A DNA stretch of 35,476 bases from a virus. The stretch's first letter is position 1. Every line of letters begins with the position of its first letter. This document shows, in pieces, positions 1,835-35,476 of the stretch. The stretch spans positions 1 through 35,476 of the IMG/VR virus record IMGVR_UViG_3300047546_001285; one strand, written 5' to 3'. Under the pieces are notes generated by a model, which was not told the origin of the DNA, ran no database searches, and saw only the letters and a list, made by a program, of their open reading frames with translations. The translations under genes were made by a program, and so were the position numbers.

Positions 1835-4800
1835 ATGGCAGCACTCGATAATATAGCATCAGAGTTATTAAAGTCTGCTAATGAAGCGGATTTAATATTT
1901 AAAAGAACTCGTGACCAAGCACAGAGGGACAAGGCTGTTCGTCTGCGTAGAATTGTTGAGAATTTGCGCCAATTAATAATTGGTGATATGCTCAAGTCCA
2001 CTTATGATACAGATGACGATGGTGTTGTAGATGCCTCTGAGACCGTTCGCATAATTGTAAGAAATAGCACGGGATCTACTTTAAATAAAGGATCTGTAGT
2101 TTATCTTAGCGGAGCAACAGGAAATAGACCTAATGCTCTCTTGTCTCAAGCAAATGCTGAGTCTACTTCATCTAAAACTATCGGTATTGTAATTGCTAAT
2201 ATTCCAAACAATAGTGATGGATATGTTGCAGTAAGTGGTACATTACACGATTTGGATACATCGGCCTTTACGGCAGGTAGTGATGTTTGGTTATCTCCAA
2301 CCGTAGCCGGGGGCCTCACTACAACTGTACCGACTGAACCCAACCATTCAGTTTTCATAGGTTATATAGCACGTTCACATCCCACCCAAGGACGATTAGT
2401 AATTTTAATTCAAAATGGATATGAACTAAATGAACTACACGATGTAAACGCCCCAACTCCCTCGAATGGAGATTTGCTTCAATATGATTCAGTTAATAAT
2501 TATTGGAAAAACGTAGCCTCCTCAGTTGCTGTTCCAACTCCAACGCTCGCACAGGTAACAACGGCGGGGAATACGACTACAAATGGAATAGTACTGGGGT
2601 CTGCTACAGCTATAACGGCATCTCCATATACGCTACAGGTGGTAGGCGGATCTGGAGGAAGTGCAATATTCTCAAACGCAGCAAAAACGCAAGGGTTAAA
2701 CATTAACTTAACAACGGCTGGAGAGACAAGGATATATGGAGATTATTTTGGAGCTGGAGTAGATCAAAAGTTGATACTTGGAACATTTGCAAACAGGGCC
2801 ACACAACTTGTTCTTCAGACATCAGGAAACGTAGGGATTGGAACTACTACTGACGCTGGGTACAAGTTGGACGTTAATGGCACAATAAGATCAACCAGCT
2901 CTATCTGGACAGATTTTTTGTCTCCCGTTGGATCAACTATGTATATTTATAGCATAGGGCTATCTGGAGGTGCGTATAACAGATTAAATATTTATTACAA
3001 TAGTGTAAACGGATTTGTAATGCAATCCGATGGTGGTGGTGGTGGAAGTAGAAGTATGAGTGTATTCGGAGGGGGCCCTGGAGGTGTTTTGAACTTAGGA
3101 ACAAACGGGGCAACAAGATGGACACTACTTAGCAGTTATGATGCATCAGGGGCAGGTCACTTTATACCTAACGGAACAAATACATATGATATAGGAAATT
3201 CTTCTAACACAGTAAGAAACCTATATTCCAATCGTGCCATTTTTTCTGGATCAGTGACGGCATCGGCAGCAATTGCAAATGCTGTTTCTATTACAAATAC
3301 ACTCGTAGCGGCAGCTAACAACGACGTGCTTGTTGGACTAGACATCAACCCTACGTTTACTAATGGTGCATTTACGGGGGTAACGAATACGACTTTAAGA
3401 GTTACGGGAAATAGTACTTTAATTGGTAATCTGACTATAACGTCGAATAATGGAAGCATAATAAACCAAAACTCATATGCTTCAAACGTTTTTACCGTTA
3501 AGGCTGTAAATAATACCACAGATATAGGTGGTATGATAATAAATGCAGGAACGGGTGATAGCCGTTTTGGTAGCTTTAGAGTTGGTGGCGGTTATTATAC
3601 TACATTCTATGTAAACAATGCTGAACTAATAAGATTATCTACTTCCAATAACGTATTAATCGGAACCACTACAGACGCAGGCTATAAGCTAGATGTTAAT
3701 GGAACCGCGAGAATTCAGGGTGTAATAACAGGAAGTGTTGGGGGTGGTGCAATCACGTTAGGAGCTGCTTCTGCAAACCAATCTGCGATAAGCATAAATG
3801 GGTATTTTACTGGAAACGGAGCAATTATAACAAGCAATGCCAATGGAAGAAGTTTCAACTCTATAATTGGTGCTCAAAACTCTGGTATTATATCATCGTA
3901 CAACGGTAACGCTCAAGGACAAACGGTAGCTAACCATTATTTTTTAGCAACAGGGAACATCAATTTAACTGATGGGGCGATTGATTTACATGGTTTTGCG
4001 TTTACGCCAACAATTGTAAGTGAAACAGGCGCTACAATAAAAGCATTTAGTAGTACTTTATCTGCTGCATCAAACCATTACAACTTATATCTATCTGGGA
4101 CTGCACAAAACTATTTAGCTGGTAGAGTAGGTATTGGGTTGACTAATCCACAAGGGGCTACACATATTGCAGTAGCAAGTGGAACTCCTGCTTTAGTTTT
4201 GTCAGATGTTGGAGCACCAGATGCAATTCCAACCTTGCAATTTAGAAGAGGTCCATTATCTGCATTTTCTCTACAGGTTGATTTCCCAAGCAATAACAAA
4301 GCACGTTTTCAAATAGGAGATGCGGTTACTGGGTATGAATTTACAGGAGGCAACTTGGGATTAACTGGTGGAAGATCAATTGAGTTTGCAGGAATAACAG
4401 GACAAGTGGCTACCGCTATAGTAGGAAGCATACATACAGATAACAATAATGGTCAATTGTTATTTTCTACTCGTGGAAGTGCTGTAACAGCAGAAAGGGC
4501 AAGAATAACAAATAACGGAAACTTCTTGATCAACACTACCACAGACGCAGGCTATAAATTAGACGTTAACGGAACTGGAAGATTCAGCGGTCAGGTAAAA
4601 TTTGACAACTCCAATATCATCGCAACAGGAATAACCTCTCAAGTAGCAAACTTCCAAATAGCGAGAGCGAATACAAATACATCTGTTGAGATAATTGGTG
4701 GTGCTACATCTGTTAAATTTGACGCAACAAGTGCTTCAGCGTCAACACAGTTTGCAGGAAAAGTAGCCATTGGTTCTGCGTACTTTACGCCAACAGAGAT

Positions 4801-24175: not shown

Positions 24176-24522
24176 GTTAGGAGGTCTTTGAATTTTTTAC
24201 GCTTATCAATTTGTTCTGTTCTATGTTTCTCTTTCTCTAGTTCAGGTACTCTTCTCAGCATGCTTTCTTCAAGAATATCTGAGGCGCTAGTTTCAAGGAA
24301 GTCTACAAAGGTAATGTATTTTGCTAATTCTGTCCAAGAAGATTTTCTAATTACTTCAGTTGCCTTTTCGTAACTTGAACAATCCTTGTAGATCATAGCA
24401 TCACCAATTATATCTGACAGCATATCAGTACGATAGCGAATGTAGTTGTCGTCTGTTATTGCAAAAATAAACCCGCTGGGTGTGTAGATTAATATCTTTT
24501 CCCAATCAAATGAGTCCTTCAT
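24172..24522 (-). CDS. Unknown protein, 116 residues
   Basis: The N-terminus is beta-rich and aromatic (FDWEKILIYTPSGFIFAITD) and the second half is helical and charged, ending EKEKHRTEQIDKRKKFKDL. It overlaps the end of the serine recombinase gene by 17 bases. No motif is known. It may be an accessory of the recombinase by position only. Confidence 0.55.
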   Translation of the reverse strand: MKDSFDWEKILIYTPSGFIFAITDDNYIRYRTDMLSDIIGDAMIYKDCSSYEKATEVIRKSSWTELAKYITFVDFLETSASDILEESMLRRVPELEKEKHRTEQIDKRKKFKDLLT

Positions 24523-25201
24523 ATATGTTGTTTCTTAGTATTTTGGTTATGGTTGTTGATTCTATTCTCCCACCTTTCTTGCCTTTGATTCCTTGTTTGT
24601 TTAGTTCACGGGCTATGTCTTTGTAAGTGAGGCCTCCCTCCCTCAAATCGTAAACCGTTTTGACTATCTTCATTTCACTATCATCAGGTATTAGTTTCCC
24701 ATCAACTTTGAGAAAGCCCAATGGGGTAACGCCACAATATACCTTGCGTTCTTTCTTTAAGTGTGACATAACACTTGTGATAAGTTCTCCCCTTTGATTG
24801 GATTCAAACTCAGCAAATGCTGCAATCATTTGAAGCATAAGTTTGCCGTGAGATGTACGAGTGTCTACTTGAAAGTCTTGCGTGTAGAATGCCACGTCTT
24901 TCTTTTCGAGGAAGTCAATCCATTTCAAAGTATCTTTGAGGTTCCTACCAAAACGAGATAGACTGTATACGGCAACTACATCAATCTTCTTTTGTTCAGC
25001 CAATCTAATCATCTTCATAAACTCAGGGCGATTCTCAAATCGTTTACCTGATACGCCTGGATCTGAGAACTGATAACGAATCTCGCAGTCGTTCATATTA
25101 CAGAACGCTTGTAGTTTCTCTAACTGATTGTCTAACGAAGAGCCGTCTTCGACTTGGTCAACGTGTGACACCCTCGTGTATATCGCTGCTACTTTCTTCA
25201 T
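24506..25201 (-). CDS. Serine recombinase (resolvase/invertase type)
   Basis: In this 231-residue protein, residues 1-140 are a serine-recombinase catalytic domain: AAIYTRVSHVDQ with the nucleophile S12, DPGVSGKRFENRP, YSLSRFGRNLKD (catalytic Arg) and GKLMLQMIAAFAEFE leading into the long E helix. Residues 150-231 are a short recombinase/helix-turn-helix region (GLTYKDIARELNKQGIKGKK). The zinc ribbon and coiled coil of large serine integrases are absent, so it is nearer to resolvases or invertases. I saw no flanking inverted recombination sites. It could resolve genome multimers or switch DNA. Confidence 0.85.
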   Translation of the reverse strand: MKKVAAIYTRVSHVDQVEDGSSLDNQLEKLQAFCNMNDCEIRYQFSDPGVSGKRFENRPEFMKMIRLAEQKKIDVVAVYSLSRFGRNLKDTLKWIDFLEKKDVAFYTQDFQVDTRTSHGKLMLQMIAAFAEFESNQRGELITSVMSHLKKERKVYCGVTPLGFLKVDGKLIPDDSEMKIVKTVYDLREGGLTYKDIARELNKQGIKGKKGGRIESTTITKILRNNIYEGLI

Positions 25202-27657: not shown

Positions 27658-28167
27658 TTATACTCCTATGATTCTAATTGAATATTGACTGAATACAAAC
27701 TCACGGTTGTTGTAGGCTTCTTGAAAGCCAGTAAGTGAGTAAACTTTACCAACAGCCTCAGCATTCAGCATAAACTCTTCGTCTGTCATTTCATCATCAT
27801 CTTCATCATCAACTAAGTACACACGTAGTTCTTTATCTACATGACCTTTGTACGCAGAGATAAATCCTGTGAGCATTGTGTACTCGTTTGGATACTGTGC
27901 GGGAAGATCAAGCCAGCAATCTACGGTTCTAAGCATATGGTACATGGTTGTTCTGTCGCGTCCAAAGGATTGTGCTACGAGGTCTTGATTGATTTTCTCT
28001 AATTCAAGAGATACATAGCAACCGATGTTGCGTATGATAACCATATTTGTTACCTGTGTACTTGTGTAGGTTTCTTTCGATACACCGAAATAAGATTCTA
28101 ATTGTGAGTGAATCTTTTCTAATTTGTCTGCTGTTGGTTTGTCCAATACTCTTTTAGATTTTGTCAT
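27658..28167 (-). CDS. DnaA C-terminal-domain-like protein
   Basis: This is a 169-residue protein. Residues 10-90 resemble domain IV of DnaA: QLESYFGVS, a helical segment, then DLVAQSFGRDRTTMYHMLRT. In DnaA the equivalent helix-turn-helix with a GRDHSTV-like signature reads the origin. The AAA+ part is missing. Residues 100-135 are very acidic (DDEDDDEMTDEEF) and the end (FQEAYNNREFVFSQYSIRII) is a separate small module. It may bind the phage or host origin, or act as a repressor. It overlaps the upstream gene by 14 bases. Confidence 0.62.
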   Translation of the reverse strand: MTKSKRVLDKPTADKLEKIHSQLESYFGVSKETYTSTQVTNMVIIRNIGCYVSLELEKINQDLVAQSFGRDRTTMYHMLRTVDCWLDLPAQYPNEYTMLTGFISAYKGHVDKELRVYLVDDEDDDEMTDEEFMLNAEAVGKVYSLTGFQEAYNNREFVFSQYSIRIIGV

Positions 28168-31011: not shown

Positions 31012-31803
31012 TTAAAACAAAGATTCTGTATAAGATTTAACTGCCTTATGGTGTGTCTTGCACATAGCACACTGACAATTAACTAGGTCATCACCATACC
31101 CTTTCATCAACTCTATACCACAGTCAAGACAATAGCCCAATTCAATAGATGACTTCTCATAATCATCATCGAATTTATTGTAGTAATCATTCCAATCTTT
31201 CGATGCATAATCTACATTGGCATTGGTAGTCTTGGTGGTTTGTAGTTGGTGTCCGTAGTAGCGGAGTGTTGGATCGAGATAAGACTTGTTGCTGAACCAT
31301 GACTCACCATCCCAAAAGCCTGCTTTCTCATTGACAATAGTAACCTCATTGTCATTGCCCATAAAGATAAGTTTGTTGTATGAGCCAATGAAGTCAGCGA
31401 TAAGAGTCATGACGCTGTTGGACTTGGTAAAGTTCTTGGGCATATCTTTGAGGAACTCATTGAAGTGCCACGTGTCAGAGAACTCTGATACCCCGTAAGA
31501 GAAGTCATTGATGATACCATTGTGTACAAAACCTACAGTCTCGTCGACAATGAACGGGTGGATGTTACGTTCATCAACTACACCGTGAGTACGAATACGG
31601 AAGTGCAGTACAACTTTCTCGGTAACTTTGCGAACCTCTTGATACTTTTTGAAGAATGCTTTGAATGATTTGAGTTGCTTATATACTTGCAACTCTCCGT
31701 TCTCTACCCACAACATACCTGCACCGTCATCGTTAGAGTTCCAGCAGTTCTGTAATGTTTTCTTGGTAAGTAAATCTTTGTTGTTGTAAATTGCGATACA
31801 CAT
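31012..31803 (-). CDS. Class II glutamine amidotransferase-like protein with zinc ribbon
   Basis: This is a 263-residue protein. It begins MCIAIYNN, so removal of Met exposes the catalytic Cys2 of an N-terminal-nucleophile amidotransferase. DDGAGMLWV (25-33), LHFRIRTHG (66-74), NIHPFIV and GFVHNGII (91-98) match the class II glutamine amidotransferase core. It would release ammonia from glutamine. The C-terminus has five Cys (C225, C228, C243, C245, C248) in a zinc-ribbon-like arrangement. The upstream neighbour is an amidoligase, a pairing known in phages and bacteria, so the two may jointly form amide bonds. Confidence 0.8.
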   Translation of the reverse strand: MCIAIYNNKDLLTKKTLQNCWNSNDDGAGMLWVENGELQVYKQLKSFKAFFKKYQEVRKVTEKVVLHFRIRTHGVVDERNIHPFIVDETVGFVHNGIINDFSYGVSEFSDTWHFNEFLKDMPKNFTKSNSVMTLIADFIGSYNKLIFMGNDNEVTIVNEKAGFWDGESWFSNKSYLDPTLRYYGHQLQTTKTTNANVDYASKDWNDYYNKFDDDYEKSSIELGYCLDCGIELMKGYGDDLVNCQCAMCKTHHKAVKSYTESLF

Positions 31804-31845: not shown

Positions 31846-33114
31846 TTAGTTAGTTTCGATTGGTAATGTAGTCATAGGACTAGTTGTGTTGTTCATGAAG
31901 TCATCTTGTTGTTCGGGTGTTAGGTCATCCCAATCTACAATGATGATAGGATTATCCCACACAGTACCCGCTACGTTGGTAATCTTCTTGACTTTCTTGG
32001 GTGCTTTGACAATCTTTTTCTTGACAAGATAGTTGTGAGTGTCGATGATGTCGAATGAATACTCACGACAATATTTGTAGAATAACTCAGCCTTGGCAAT
32101 GATTTGTTCTACACTGTACACCTTGCGAAGTAAAGCATGTAACTTACCACGACCATCAAGCATATTTTTGAGGACTTGGGCCTCACTTACATCACGATTG
32201 GATACCATATACTTAATAAGTTCAGTACGCCACAACAGATTAGATACATTACGAACAGCACCAAAGATACGAAACTCTAAACGAGAGTCTTTGATAAACA
32301 CCGCACCATACTTATCATTGGCACTACTATGCTTGGAGATAGCAGGACAATAAGTATTGTTGACACGACCATTGTACAAACAGTAAAGCAAAGGCATATA
32401 AGATTTGATAGACTGATACAACTCACGATTAGTCATACTGATGTGAGAGATATTGATATGACCACCACAAGACTTGGAGTAGTCAGCATCGATATAACTC
32501 TTTACATTGGCAAAGGTATCAGCATTGACCTTGAACATATCAAAGACAGGAGATACAAACTCAAAGCCACTGTAATCATCGAGAGAACCATCGCGTTCTT
32601 TTGCCCAACCCGTACGTCTGAAACATTCATACGCTGACTCTTCTGTCTTGACATCGTAGTCTTCTTTCTCTACCTCATAAGCAATACGCCACTCTGCACG
32701 CTGTGCCTCGGGAGAGAACACACGATTGCCCGAATGATAATCGAACGTGTAATCTTTATCGTTATCTTCTTCTTCGGTATAAAACTCACCGTCATCATGA
32801 AGATACAAGCCATAGTCACGAGCAACATCGTCGTTCATTGCGTAGTCAAAGCGGCAACCGTTGACTGAATAGTACTCACACTCATGACTAGAAAAGTAAC
32901 CGCAGTTACCGTGTCGGTCAATGAGTCCGTAAAGAGCATCGTCTCGCCAAATGTCTTCTTCGAGATACGAACACTCGACAATTCTACCTTTGTCTTGGAG
33001 GTCTTCATACTGTGTGTCAGTAAGCCAAGCGTCTAAGTAAGTGTAGTGTCTGGCTTGTGATTGAGGTACGATTGTACCATCGTAGGTCGTTACTAAAATT
33101 TCAGTAGTTTCCAT
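31846..33114 (-). CDS. Amidoligase family (COOH-NH2 ligase-like) protein
   Basis: This is a 422-residue protein. After an acidic 140-residue N-terminal region comes an amidoligase core. AYEVEKE (145-151) stands in the place of the usual GxExE strand. DGSL (175-178), GFEFVSP (183-189), CGGHINIS (216-223) and RLEFRIFGA (278-286) follow in the expected order. Amidoligases are ATP-dependent, glutamine-synthetase-like enzymes that join carboxyl and amino groups. The N-terminus (YLEEDIWRDDALYGLIDRHG, Cys- and Tyr-rich) is not part of the core and may hold the substrate or a partner. It lies 42 bases upstream of the class II amidotransferase. The substrate is unknown. Confidence 0.75.
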   Translation of the reverse strand: METTEILVTTYDGTIVPQSQARHYTYLDAWLTDTQYEDLQDKGRIVECSYLEEDIWRDDALYGLIDRHGNCGYFSSHECEYYSVNGCRFDYAMNDDVARDYGLYLHDDGEFYTEEEDNDKDYTFDYHSGNRVFSPEAQRAEWRIAYEVEKEDYDVKTEESAYECFRRTGWAKERDGSLDDYSGFEFVSPVFDMFKVNADTFANVKSYIDADYSKSCGGHINISHISMTNRELYQSIKSYMPLLYCLYNGRVNNTYCPAISKHSSANDKYGAVFIKDSRLEFRIFGAVRNVSNLLWRTELIKYMVSNRDVSEAQVLKNMLDGRGKLHALLRKVYSVEQIIAKAELFYKYCREYSFDIIDTHNYLVKKKIVKAPKKVKKITNVAGTVWDNPIIIVDWDDLTPEQQDDFMNNTTSPMTTLPIETN

Positions 33115-33500: not shown

Positions 33501-33599
33501 TTACCATTTTACTTTTTTAAGTTCAAGCATCCAACAAATGCCATAAGTGATTAGTAACAATAACGCTACCGCTATGACTGAATCAGTTAGTATTTTCAT
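33501..33599 (-). CDS. Tiny single-pass membrane protein, 32 residues
   Basis: ATG 33599 overlaps the upstream TGA (ATGA) and its TAA is 3 bases before the next start. Residues 5-24 form one membrane helix (TDSVIAVALLLLITYGICW) and the tail is basic (LKKVKW). The framing by neighbours supports it. Function unknown. Confidence 0.55.
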   Translation of the reverse strand: MKILTDSVIAVALLLLITYGICWMLELKKVKW

Positions 33600-33760
33600 G
33601 CCCGATAGTATTTATTTTCTGTTGTGATACCATACTTGAACGCCTTACGTTCTTTGGGTTGAATTGCTGACGTTCTTGTTTGACCGTTTACAACCTTCCG
33701 TTTGTAACGATTGCGCAGTTCGTCAATCTCTGCGGTTGTGAGGAATTTAACTTGAATCAT
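33596..33760 (-). CDS. Small basic protein, 54 residues
   Basis: ATG 33760 is preceded by the AACCAATTAATTAAAAA leader shared with the gene at 33863-34345. The product MIQVKFLTTAEIDELRNRYK is followed by a basic middle and FKYGITTENKYYRA. It may bind nucleic acid. The shared leader and the ATGA junction with the next gene make it convincing. Confidence 0.6.
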   Translation of the reverse strand: MIQVKFLTTAEIDELRNRYKRKVVNGQTRTSAIQPKERKAFKYGITTENKYYRA

Positions 33761-33783
33761 TTGTTTTTAATTAATTGGTTTGG

Positions 33784-33851
33784 AAATGTGGTTGCGTTTG
33801 ACACACTGACAACCCCCACCCAATTAAGAGAGGGGGTCTCAGACCACATTT
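33784..33851 (-). promoter_or_regulatory. Nested hairpin element between operon genes
   Basis: AAATGTGGT (33784-33792) pairs with ACCACATTT (33843-33851). Inside it ACCCCC (33812-33817) pairs with GGGGGT (33832-33837), with CTGA and TCAG between. The structure holds one GGGGTCTCA copy and fills the gap between 33760 and 33863. It has no T tract, so it is more likely a regulatory or processing element than a terminator. Confidence 0.5.
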
Positions 33852-33862
33852 AGAATTTACTT

Positions 33863-34345
33863 TTACTGTGCTACTGATAAGAACTGCTTCATTGTAGAAT
33901 CACATAAGGCACGCATAGAGTCAGTACGCACATACTCACCACTCGCAATGTCCACCACATTAGGACGACTTGCTTTTGGTCGTTTCTGTTTAGCCACCGC
34001 AGTAAGCATATCCACAAGGTAACAAGCAAAGTTTTTGATACCACGCTCACCACAGATACGCACACCTTCCTCAAAGGTATCACGCAAGGCACTACCGACA
34101 TTGTCCAATGTGGTATCTTCATAGCACACTTTGAGGTTGATTGGCTTGTTTAATTTGTACGGACACCGCTTGTACCGCCTTTGCACATCAAGGACATCAA
34201 AGAATTGGTCTACAAGGTCGCCAATAACAACACCGACAGCGTCCGCGTCAACAAATTCAACGGACAATTCACGAGGGGACACAATAAAGCGTCCGCTTTT
34301 TGTCTCACAATCTTGCGAAACAAAAATAGTTAGTTTTTTAGACAT
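33863..34345 (-). CDS. Unknown protein, 160 residues, first gene after the structured region
   Basis: It starts MSKKLTIFVSQDCETKSGRF, has an acidic middle (SVEFVDADAVGVVIGDLVDQ), a helical region with several Cys (RICGERGIKNFACYLVDML) and a basic stretch (KQKRPKASRP). No family is recognised. It is probably the first protein gene of the leftward transcript beginning at about 34912, and is preceded by the shared AT-rich leader. Confidence 0.6.
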   Translation of the reverse strand: MSKKLTIFVSQDCETKSGRFIVSPRELSVEFVDADAVGVVIGDLVDQFFDVLDVQRRYKRCPYKLNKPINLKVCYEDTTLDNVGSALRDTFEEGVRICGERGIKNFACYLVDMLTAVAKQKRPKASRPNVVDIASGEYVRTDSMRALCDSTMKQFLSVAQ

Positions 34346-34367: not shown

Positions 34368-34912
34368 GTGGGTGCGTAGCATTGAAGCAAGTCAACATAA
34401 ATTGACCGCACCCGATAGCAGTTGGGTACATACATAGTACATACCCAAAACATAGAAGACACACTAATAGTGTGTTTGTTCGTTCGTGTTCGTGTAGCAT
34501 AATTGCTACTTGTAATGTATTCAAGGAAAGGTAGACACACCTGTCCCGCTGTGGTTTTACCATATATTACCCACATAGTACCCATCAAGGGTCGGACTGC
34601 CCATTACGGCTATCTACTTGACTATAATTTGCCACCACGATAAATCGCGTCCGTTTGTGTTACCTCGCCCATAGCGTTCCCATTCAAGTATGGTAAAACA
34701 CCCTTGTTACAATCGTTAGGTCATGGAAAGTCCATGCCGTCCGCTATGTCGGTTTGCCTGTTTCGTCAGACAATAGTTCGTCACGCTGAAAACACCACAT
34801 TTTCAGTTAGAACTAATCATAAGATTTGCACTAGATACACGATTGACACCCCGCTTTCATCGGCTAACCTTTCAGTCCCTACCTTGATAGTCAATAACGA
34901 TATTTCTAATAC
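34368..34912 (-). ncRNA. Candidate structured RNA of about 545 bases
   Basis: No convincing frame is open, and many hairpins occur. They are CTGAAAA/TTTTCAG (34786-34806), TGCCTG/CAGACA (34755-34772), CATGGA/TCCATG (34719-34738), GTAGCA/TGCTAC (34494-34509), ACACACT/AGTGTGT (34459-34475), TTGGGTA/TACCCAA (34422-34448), and GGGTGCG/CGCACCC (34370-34413) enclosing GTCAA/TTGAC. Long-range pairs are GTTTTACCATA with TATGGTAAAAC (34554-34564, 34689-34699) and CATAGCG with CGCTATG (34670-34676, 34742-34748); these cross, as in a pseudoknot. At 34755-34772 and 34422-34448 the minus-strand copy has G-U pairs where the plus copy would have A-C mismatches, so the RNA is probably minus-strand. A good promoter stands at its 5' end. 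Confidence 0.55.
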
Positions 34913-34946: not shown

Positions 34947-34959
34947 CACATCCCCAACT

Positions 34960-35136
34960 TTTTTTTTACATTTTTTCAAAAATAATTTGTAACTAATTGA
35001 ATATCAATAACTTACAAAAGTAATTTAGAATAATTCTAAATAGCGTGGCGAAATTTCCCTTTTATATAATAGGAATCGGGCGCGCGCGTATGGTAGGTGG
35101 AAAGTGGTTGATTTGCAAATATGCAATGTCATTTTA
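34960..35136. other. AT-rich spacer with a GCGCGCGC patch, no gene seen
   Basis: From 34960 to about 35060 the sequence is A/T-rich with homopolymer T and A runs. A short GGGCGCGCGCGT patch lies near 35080, and a palindrome ATTTGCAAAT at 35111-35120. I see no supported gene on either strand. An AT-rich stretch next to repeats is typical of phage origins or control regions; this is inference. Confidence 0.4.
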
Positions 35137-35184
35137 TTGTCATAAAAATGTACGGGCTATCTTTGTCATATTATTGTCATAAAA
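35135..35184. repeat. Two copies of TTATTGTCATAAAA
   Basis: TTATTGTCATAAAA occurs at 35135-35148 and 35171-35184, spaced 36 bases, with further TGTCAT copies between and before them. They flank the -7 box of the possible rightward promoter, so they may be regulator-binding sites. Confidence 0.6.
35137..35165 (+). promoter_or_regulatory. Possible rightward promoter (TTG-N18-TATCTTTG)
   Basis: TTG 35137-35139 and TATCTTTG 35158-35165 are 18 bases apart on the plus strand. It would drive genes beyond the right edge and be divergent from the promoter at 34917. The iteron-like repeats lie downstream in its leader. Confidence 0.4.
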
Positions 35185-35229
35185 TCCAATTCACTTGTTT
35201 AATTCATGCCTTTTTATTATAGAAATTGG

Positions 35230-35373
35230 TGTCCAAAAAAACAGACATTTGTTCGTTACCCTTGTAGTATGCAGTAGACAACCAAAGTGATCAGTTTTCT
35301 GGACAGTAATTGTCTAAAAAAATGGACATGGCTGTCTAATTTAATGGAAATCGTGTGTCCAATTTAATGGGCG
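35230..35373. repeat. Four 18-base iteron-like repeats, TGTCYAAWWWAAHRGRM-type
   Basis: Copies are TGTCCAAAAAAACAGACA (35230-35247), TGTCTAAAAAAATGGACA (35311-35328), TGTCTAATTTAATGGAAA (35333-35350) and TGTCCAATTTAATGGGCG (35356-35373). The first two are imperfect palindromes with TGTC/GACA ends. The last three start 22 and 23 bases apart, about two helical turns, so a protein could bind them on one face. A further half-site TGGACA is at 35300-35305. They could be replication iterons or repressor operators. Confidence 0.65.
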
Positions 35374-35476
35374 GGGAGTTTTATTTTGACGGGGGTGGAC
35401 CCGGAAATGCAACGTTTACCTACCCCACTCGCACAAACAGTAAATTTAAAAGGTAGGGGGGGTATAACCCCGGGGG
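35374..35476. other. G-rich end region, no gene seen
   Basis: This stretch alternates G-rich and C-rich blocks: GACGGGGGTGGACCCGG, CCTACCCC, GGTAGGGGGGGT. It ends with a small hairpin, GGGGT-ATA-ACCCC. I see no gene wholly inside it; a gene start just beyond the edge is possible. Confidence 0.4.

Follow-up and report, generated by a model that had tools for sequence, protein, structure and literature searches.

In the window analysed here, a single virus record of 35,476 bases, about 545 bases (34368-34912) behind a promoter hold no supported gene: the open reading frames there are short, and the two related contigs described below do not share them. The initial annotation had read this region as one long structured RNA at the head of the leftward operon, reminiscent of GOLLD or ROOL. 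Is there such an RNA, on which strand and over what length does it extend, and what might it do for the phage?

The last ~247 nucleotides form a conserved structured RNA

Homologues, whose collection had been named as a check, were found on two IMG/VR contigs of uncultured phages: L003 (3833-4152), reached via the 422-aa gene at window 31846-33114, and L005 (4728-4972), reached via the 54-aa gene. The family has three members, all from metagenomes. On both contigs the RNA shares the operon's strand and carries compensatory changes; the early promoter region lies upstream of it and the 54-aa gene downstream.

Compared with shuffled sequences, the whole minus-strand RNA of the window gave a folding z of -3.3, with coding controls scattering around 0. 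Excess structure over all 545 nt, as first proposed, did not hold up: the 3' half (34368-34614) reached z -4.34 (0/200 shuffles as good) and the 5' half (34615-34908) z -0.52 (57/200), while 270-nt coding controls fell between -1.9 and +1.7. RNAalifold on a sequence-only alignment of the three 3' halves returned 47 pairs, 11 of them with two-sided changes; with a second sequence-only alignment, the energy was 7.85 sd below that of column-shuffled alignments (0/100), the opposite strand giving -5.6 in the same test. A curated structure comprises nine helices and 45 pairs, with 133/135 cells forming standard pairs and 17 pairs changing on both sides across the three sequences, a count that is descriptive because the helices were picked by inspection. 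When three helices were counted on the alignment, 97% of cells paired, as against 28-48% with slid partners. A leave-one-out covariance model of the 121-nt sub-block 34494-34614, trained on the window and L003, retrieved L005 at E 7.9e-14 with the next match at 1.4; each phage record holds one copy of the RNA by covariance model.

Based on homologues, RNAalifold, the leave-one-out model and single-sequence folding, we are close to certain that a conserved structured RNA exists at this locus in three phages. The structured minus-strand RNA that had been claimed thus stands, at a supported length of ~247 nt (34368-34614, minus strand) instead of 545, as a conserved phage RNA family not in Rfam 15. 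One might object that three sequences, with curated helices chosen after inspection, could reflect chance folding devoid of function, but the column-shuffle z of -7.85 and the leave-one-out E-value already contradict this scarcely credible explanation. The proposed strand was also borne out: the RNA strand out-folds its complement in each 3' half, and the minus strand is correct because seven G-U cells in conserved helices would turn into A-C mismatches if the complement were the RNA.

Helices, loops and a recurrent GCGG motif

The hairpins listed in the initial annotation are present in the sequence; all window coordinates in this section refer to the minus strand. A long-range helix closes the domain (GAUAGC, 34614-34609, with GCUAUC, 34419-34414). 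The hairpin UGUGG/CCACA (34550-34575), which bears the conserved loop AUAUAUGGUAA and is followed by GCGG, shows two-sided changes to UCACG/CGUGG in L003 and GACGG/CCGUC in L005. Immediately 3' of the GCGG lies the hairpin GACA/UGUC (34534-34545; UACA/UGUA in L003, AUAU/AUAU in L005), and further on GUAGC-AAUUAU-GCUAC (34494-34509), whose loop is invariant and whose stem reads GUUGC/GUAAC in L003 and GUAGU/GCUAC in L005. Behind a conserved ACGAA..AA, the hairpin ACACACUA-U-UAGUGUGU (34459-34475) is replaced by ACACGGC/GUCGUGU in L003 and AGUGCAG/UUGCACU in L005, with two-sided change in 6/7 pairs. The hairpin UUGGGUAUGUAC/GUAUGUACCCAA (34422-34448) is optional, with AUAC..GUAU in the corresponding position of L003 and no clear counterpart in L005. 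The domain ends in a terminal stem GGGUGCG/CGCACCC with an inner hairpin GUCAA/UUGAC and a conserved CUUCAAUG internal loop (34370-34413); the outer stem is invariant, and the inner one reads GACAC/GUGUC in L005 and GACA/UGUC in L003.

The conserved loops of the RNA are AAUUAU, AUAYAUGRUAA and UUCRAUG. The three RNAs together contain 18 copies of the motif GCGG where 4.2 would be expected, a 4.3-fold enrichment over dinucleotide shuffles (0/500), with only 4 of the copies in the window; the motif often sits at the junction where one helix stops and the next starts. Two candidate pairings were discarded: a stem of GCGUU, behind the terminator-like hairpin of L003 and L005, with the terminal AACGC, which is missing in the window, and a pairing of the conserved loop with upstream sequence, seen in the window only.

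The 5' half diverges between the three phages

In the window, the 5' half of the transcript (34615-34908, minus strand) gave no evidence of conserved structure, by its folding z and by alignment: the 5' halves of the window and its relatives yielded no useful alignment and no RNAalifold signal. Those of L003 and L005 out-fold shuffles, with z of -2.5 and -5.2. The inverted repeat behind the previously noted 11-pair helix is present (34554-34564/34689-34699). The helix does modestly better than random expectation in the window (p 0.024) and has no counterpart in L003 (0.91) or L005 (0.46). The pseudoknot that had been drawn from it fares likewise. Its crossing 7-nt repeat (34670-34676/34742-34748) exists, yet the pseudoknot is unsupported because the 11-pair helix is confined to the window. 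The 7-nt helix may match a local UAGCG-GUAA-CGCUA hairpin of L003 at ~3736-3749, a correspondence that is suggestive only. No covariation-supported pseudoknot was found in the three sequences, a sample in which others could be missed.

The RNA is positioned as a probable leader of the early operon

A promoter had been claimed upstream of the RNA, and a Bacteroidota-type promoter, TTG-N19-TATCTTTG, indeed lies at 34946-34917 (minus strand), with similar promoters at L003 2682 and L005 3554; the predicted transcription start is ~34910. The RNA can therefore be said to follow an early promoter, as the phrase "head of the leftward operon" implied, but it does not head all leftward genes: upstream of the promoter region, the relatives carry more genes on the same strand, among them a YqaJ exonuclease. 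At its 3' end, the terminal stem lies 23-35 nt ahead of the next start codon in the window, L003 and L005, separated from it by an A-rich tract in which we found weak hairpins and no terminator. Because the RNA ends this close to a start codon without a terminator, it would be made as part of the early-operon mRNA, and a stand-alone large RNA is no more likely than an operon leader.

Since position, strand and missing terminator all fit, our preferred reading, to which we give a probability of about one half, is that the ~247-nt domain is the 3'-terminal portion of the early (replication) operon's untranslated leader and acts in cis. Judged from sequence, the most likely role of the RNA is to control how the genes after it are expressed. 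Its transcription would start in the Bacteroidota-type promoter region upstream, and it would stay within the early mRNA, initially at least; the domain would fold on the emerging transcript and could prepare polymerase or mRNA for a long operon, by anti-termination, by stabilisation or by keeping the A-rich ribosome-binding region open. Service to one particular gene is unlikely because the gene that follows differs: the 160-aa gene in the window, the 54-aa gene in the relatives. Several observations count against the leader reading, a size well above that of the put RNAs discussed below among them. In L003 and L005 an intrinsic-terminator-like hairpin lies ahead of the RNA, which cannot suppress it because the hairpin comes first; the window showed only one strong leftward terminator farther along (14569-14550); and the conserved loops would fit tertiary or intermolecular contacts equally well.

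The closest parallel is the put (polymerase-utilisation) RNA of phage HK022. RNAs of the put type make RNA polymerase terminator-resistant. They sit immediately after early promoters, exert their effect in cis over 10 kb and are each ~70 nt long with two stem-loops (PMC9378689). The RNA described here is likewise structured, just behind a phage early promoter and upstream of a long early operon; this arrangement of promoter and operon is found in the window, whereas one gene and the terminator-like hairpin intervene in L003 and L005. It differs in size, the domain of ~247 nt and at least eight helices being several times larger than put, and in belonging to phages of another bacterial phylum. 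If the RNA does condition the early operon, phages of the Bacteroidota would have an RNA-based means of taking over transcription or the stability of mRNA; to our knowledge, no such phage element is known from this phylum.

Comparison with large phage RNAs

The main rival to the leader reading is a stand-alone, trans-acting RNA of the GOLLD/ROOL kind, self-assembling or serving as a scaffold, that would be excised from the early transcript, for instance by RNase III cutting at a long helix of L003 and L005 described below; we regard it as rather doubtful. GOLLD and ROOL are often neighbours of tRNA islands in phages or prophages, have covariation-supported pseudoknots and form homo-oligomeric cages. 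The untranslated length of 540-650 nt in total, the strong folding of L005 (z -7.4), the conserved single-stranded loops and the potential RNase III site speak for such an RNA, as does a conserved 3' half joined to a divergent 5' half, a pattern reported for GOLLD (PMC12286853), which is likewise phage-encoded. With ROOL it shares a phage-borne, complex structure and the lack of an assigned function. However, the likeness to GOLLD or ROOL suggested initially found no backing in Rfam, where no family matched at the gathering threshold, these two included. The RNA is also shorter than GOLLD, ends directly before a gene without a terminator, shows no structure in its 5' half in the window, and lacks the covariation-supported pseudoknot of ROOL. 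Nor is it part of a tRNA array in the window, which holds no tRNA; in L005 a tRNA-Trp, called on the overlapping contig L007, precedes the RNA by ~4 kb, and L010 has one in the corresponding position. If it stands alone, the RNA would enlarge the small group of large phage RNAs that still await an assigned function.

Other searches returned little. When the three RNAs were scanned permissively against Rfam, one chance-level sRNA match was the sole result, and the group I and group II intron models had no match in Rfam scans. The terminal-stem pattern recovered L003 and L005 among viral contigs, plus L008, a chance match inside actinophage-like genes; across 84,980 species genomes it gave six matches in unrelated taxa against ~7 estimated by chance, at loci with no covariance-model match. 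The core-hairpin pattern found nothing besides L003 and L005 in viral contigs, where an exact 25-mer from the 5' half and the 160-aa protein as a single query had no match either. Phage and plasmid DNA collections yielded nothing, the distant primase relatives L033-L035 are without the RNA, and contigs from the linked-protein and YqaJ searches (L010, L024, L025) stop ahead of its position.

A linked protein gene adjoins the RNA

The window has the order promoter, RNA, 160-aa gene (33863-34345, minus strand, directly 3' of the RNA) and 54-aa gene (33599-33760, minus strand). In L003 and L005 the order is promoter, leader, 197/205-aa gene, terminator-like hairpin, RNA and 54-aa gene; the latter, there directly 3' of the RNA, is 93% and 63% identical. 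By alignment, the 160-, 197- and 205-aa proteins form one family of no assigned function, and the gene adjoins the RNA in 3/3 phages. In the relatives it is enclosed by a 20-25 bp helix (L003 2780-3476, z -6.1; L005 3654-4386, z -6.8). The sequence of this helix is entirely different in the two, and it might be cut by RNase III or hold the gene in a loop.

That the gene stays beside the RNA even though the side differs, together with the GCGG repeats as possible binding sites, would agree with an RNA working with this protein, either as an RNP or as a protein-binding RNA that autoregulates the gene. We consider this improbable: related phages keep neighbours linked without functional ties, the predicted structure of the protein (pLDDT 72) matched nothing in PDB or BFVD with an E-value of 0.001 or lower, GCGG has few copies in the window, and many of its copies lie at helix ends and may be structural. 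Equally improbable is its extended form, in which a large RNA and its own protein partner constitute one unit, a new RNA class whose RNA and protein would function as an RNP or as an RNA assembly at an early stage of infection, with the protein gene looped out by the helix 5' of the RNA in two phages and moved behind it in the third.

Behind the 160-aa gene, window 33765-33855 (minus strand) holds a second structured stretch, in which AAATGTGGT..ACCACATTT closes an ACCCCC..GGGGGT hairpin; it is followed by a AACCAATTAATTAAAAA tract, as is the RNA.

Sequence upstream of the promoter and the phage host

A conserved noncoding stretch lies upstream of the promoter (window 34950-35476, L003 2050-2700, L005 2880-3600). 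It contains TGTCYAATTTAATGGACAT-like and TTATTGTCATAAAA repeats, in L005 also three TTTGTTTAAACAAA palindromes, and could be an operator or origin by resemblance; several contigs break within or close to it. Its proximity might suggest that the hairpins act as DNA, in a replication origin or packaging site. The TGTCYAATTTAATGGACAT-like repeats are located outside the RNA, however, and with G-U pairs on one strand only and better folding of that strand, a DNA element is very improbable.

The leftward genes of the window include terminase, RNR, primase/helicase and thymidylate synthase. Because promoters of the Bacteroidota type (TTG-N17..21-TAnnTTTG) are present and the primase has relatives in Flavobacterium phages, the host is probably a member of the Bacteroidota. 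No close relative of the phage group was found among 50,697 phage records. Within the leftward operon, 24506-25201 (minus strand) encodes a protein matching integrase/DNA invertase PHROGs. Window 27658-28167 (minus strand) encodes a 169-aa protein with a weak match, under its cut-off, to the DnaA C-terminal helix-turn-helix (Pfam PF08299). A glutamine-amidotransferase-like protein of 263 aa (31012-31803, minus strand) is 85% identical to that of L003 and ~40% to those of Methylophilales phages.
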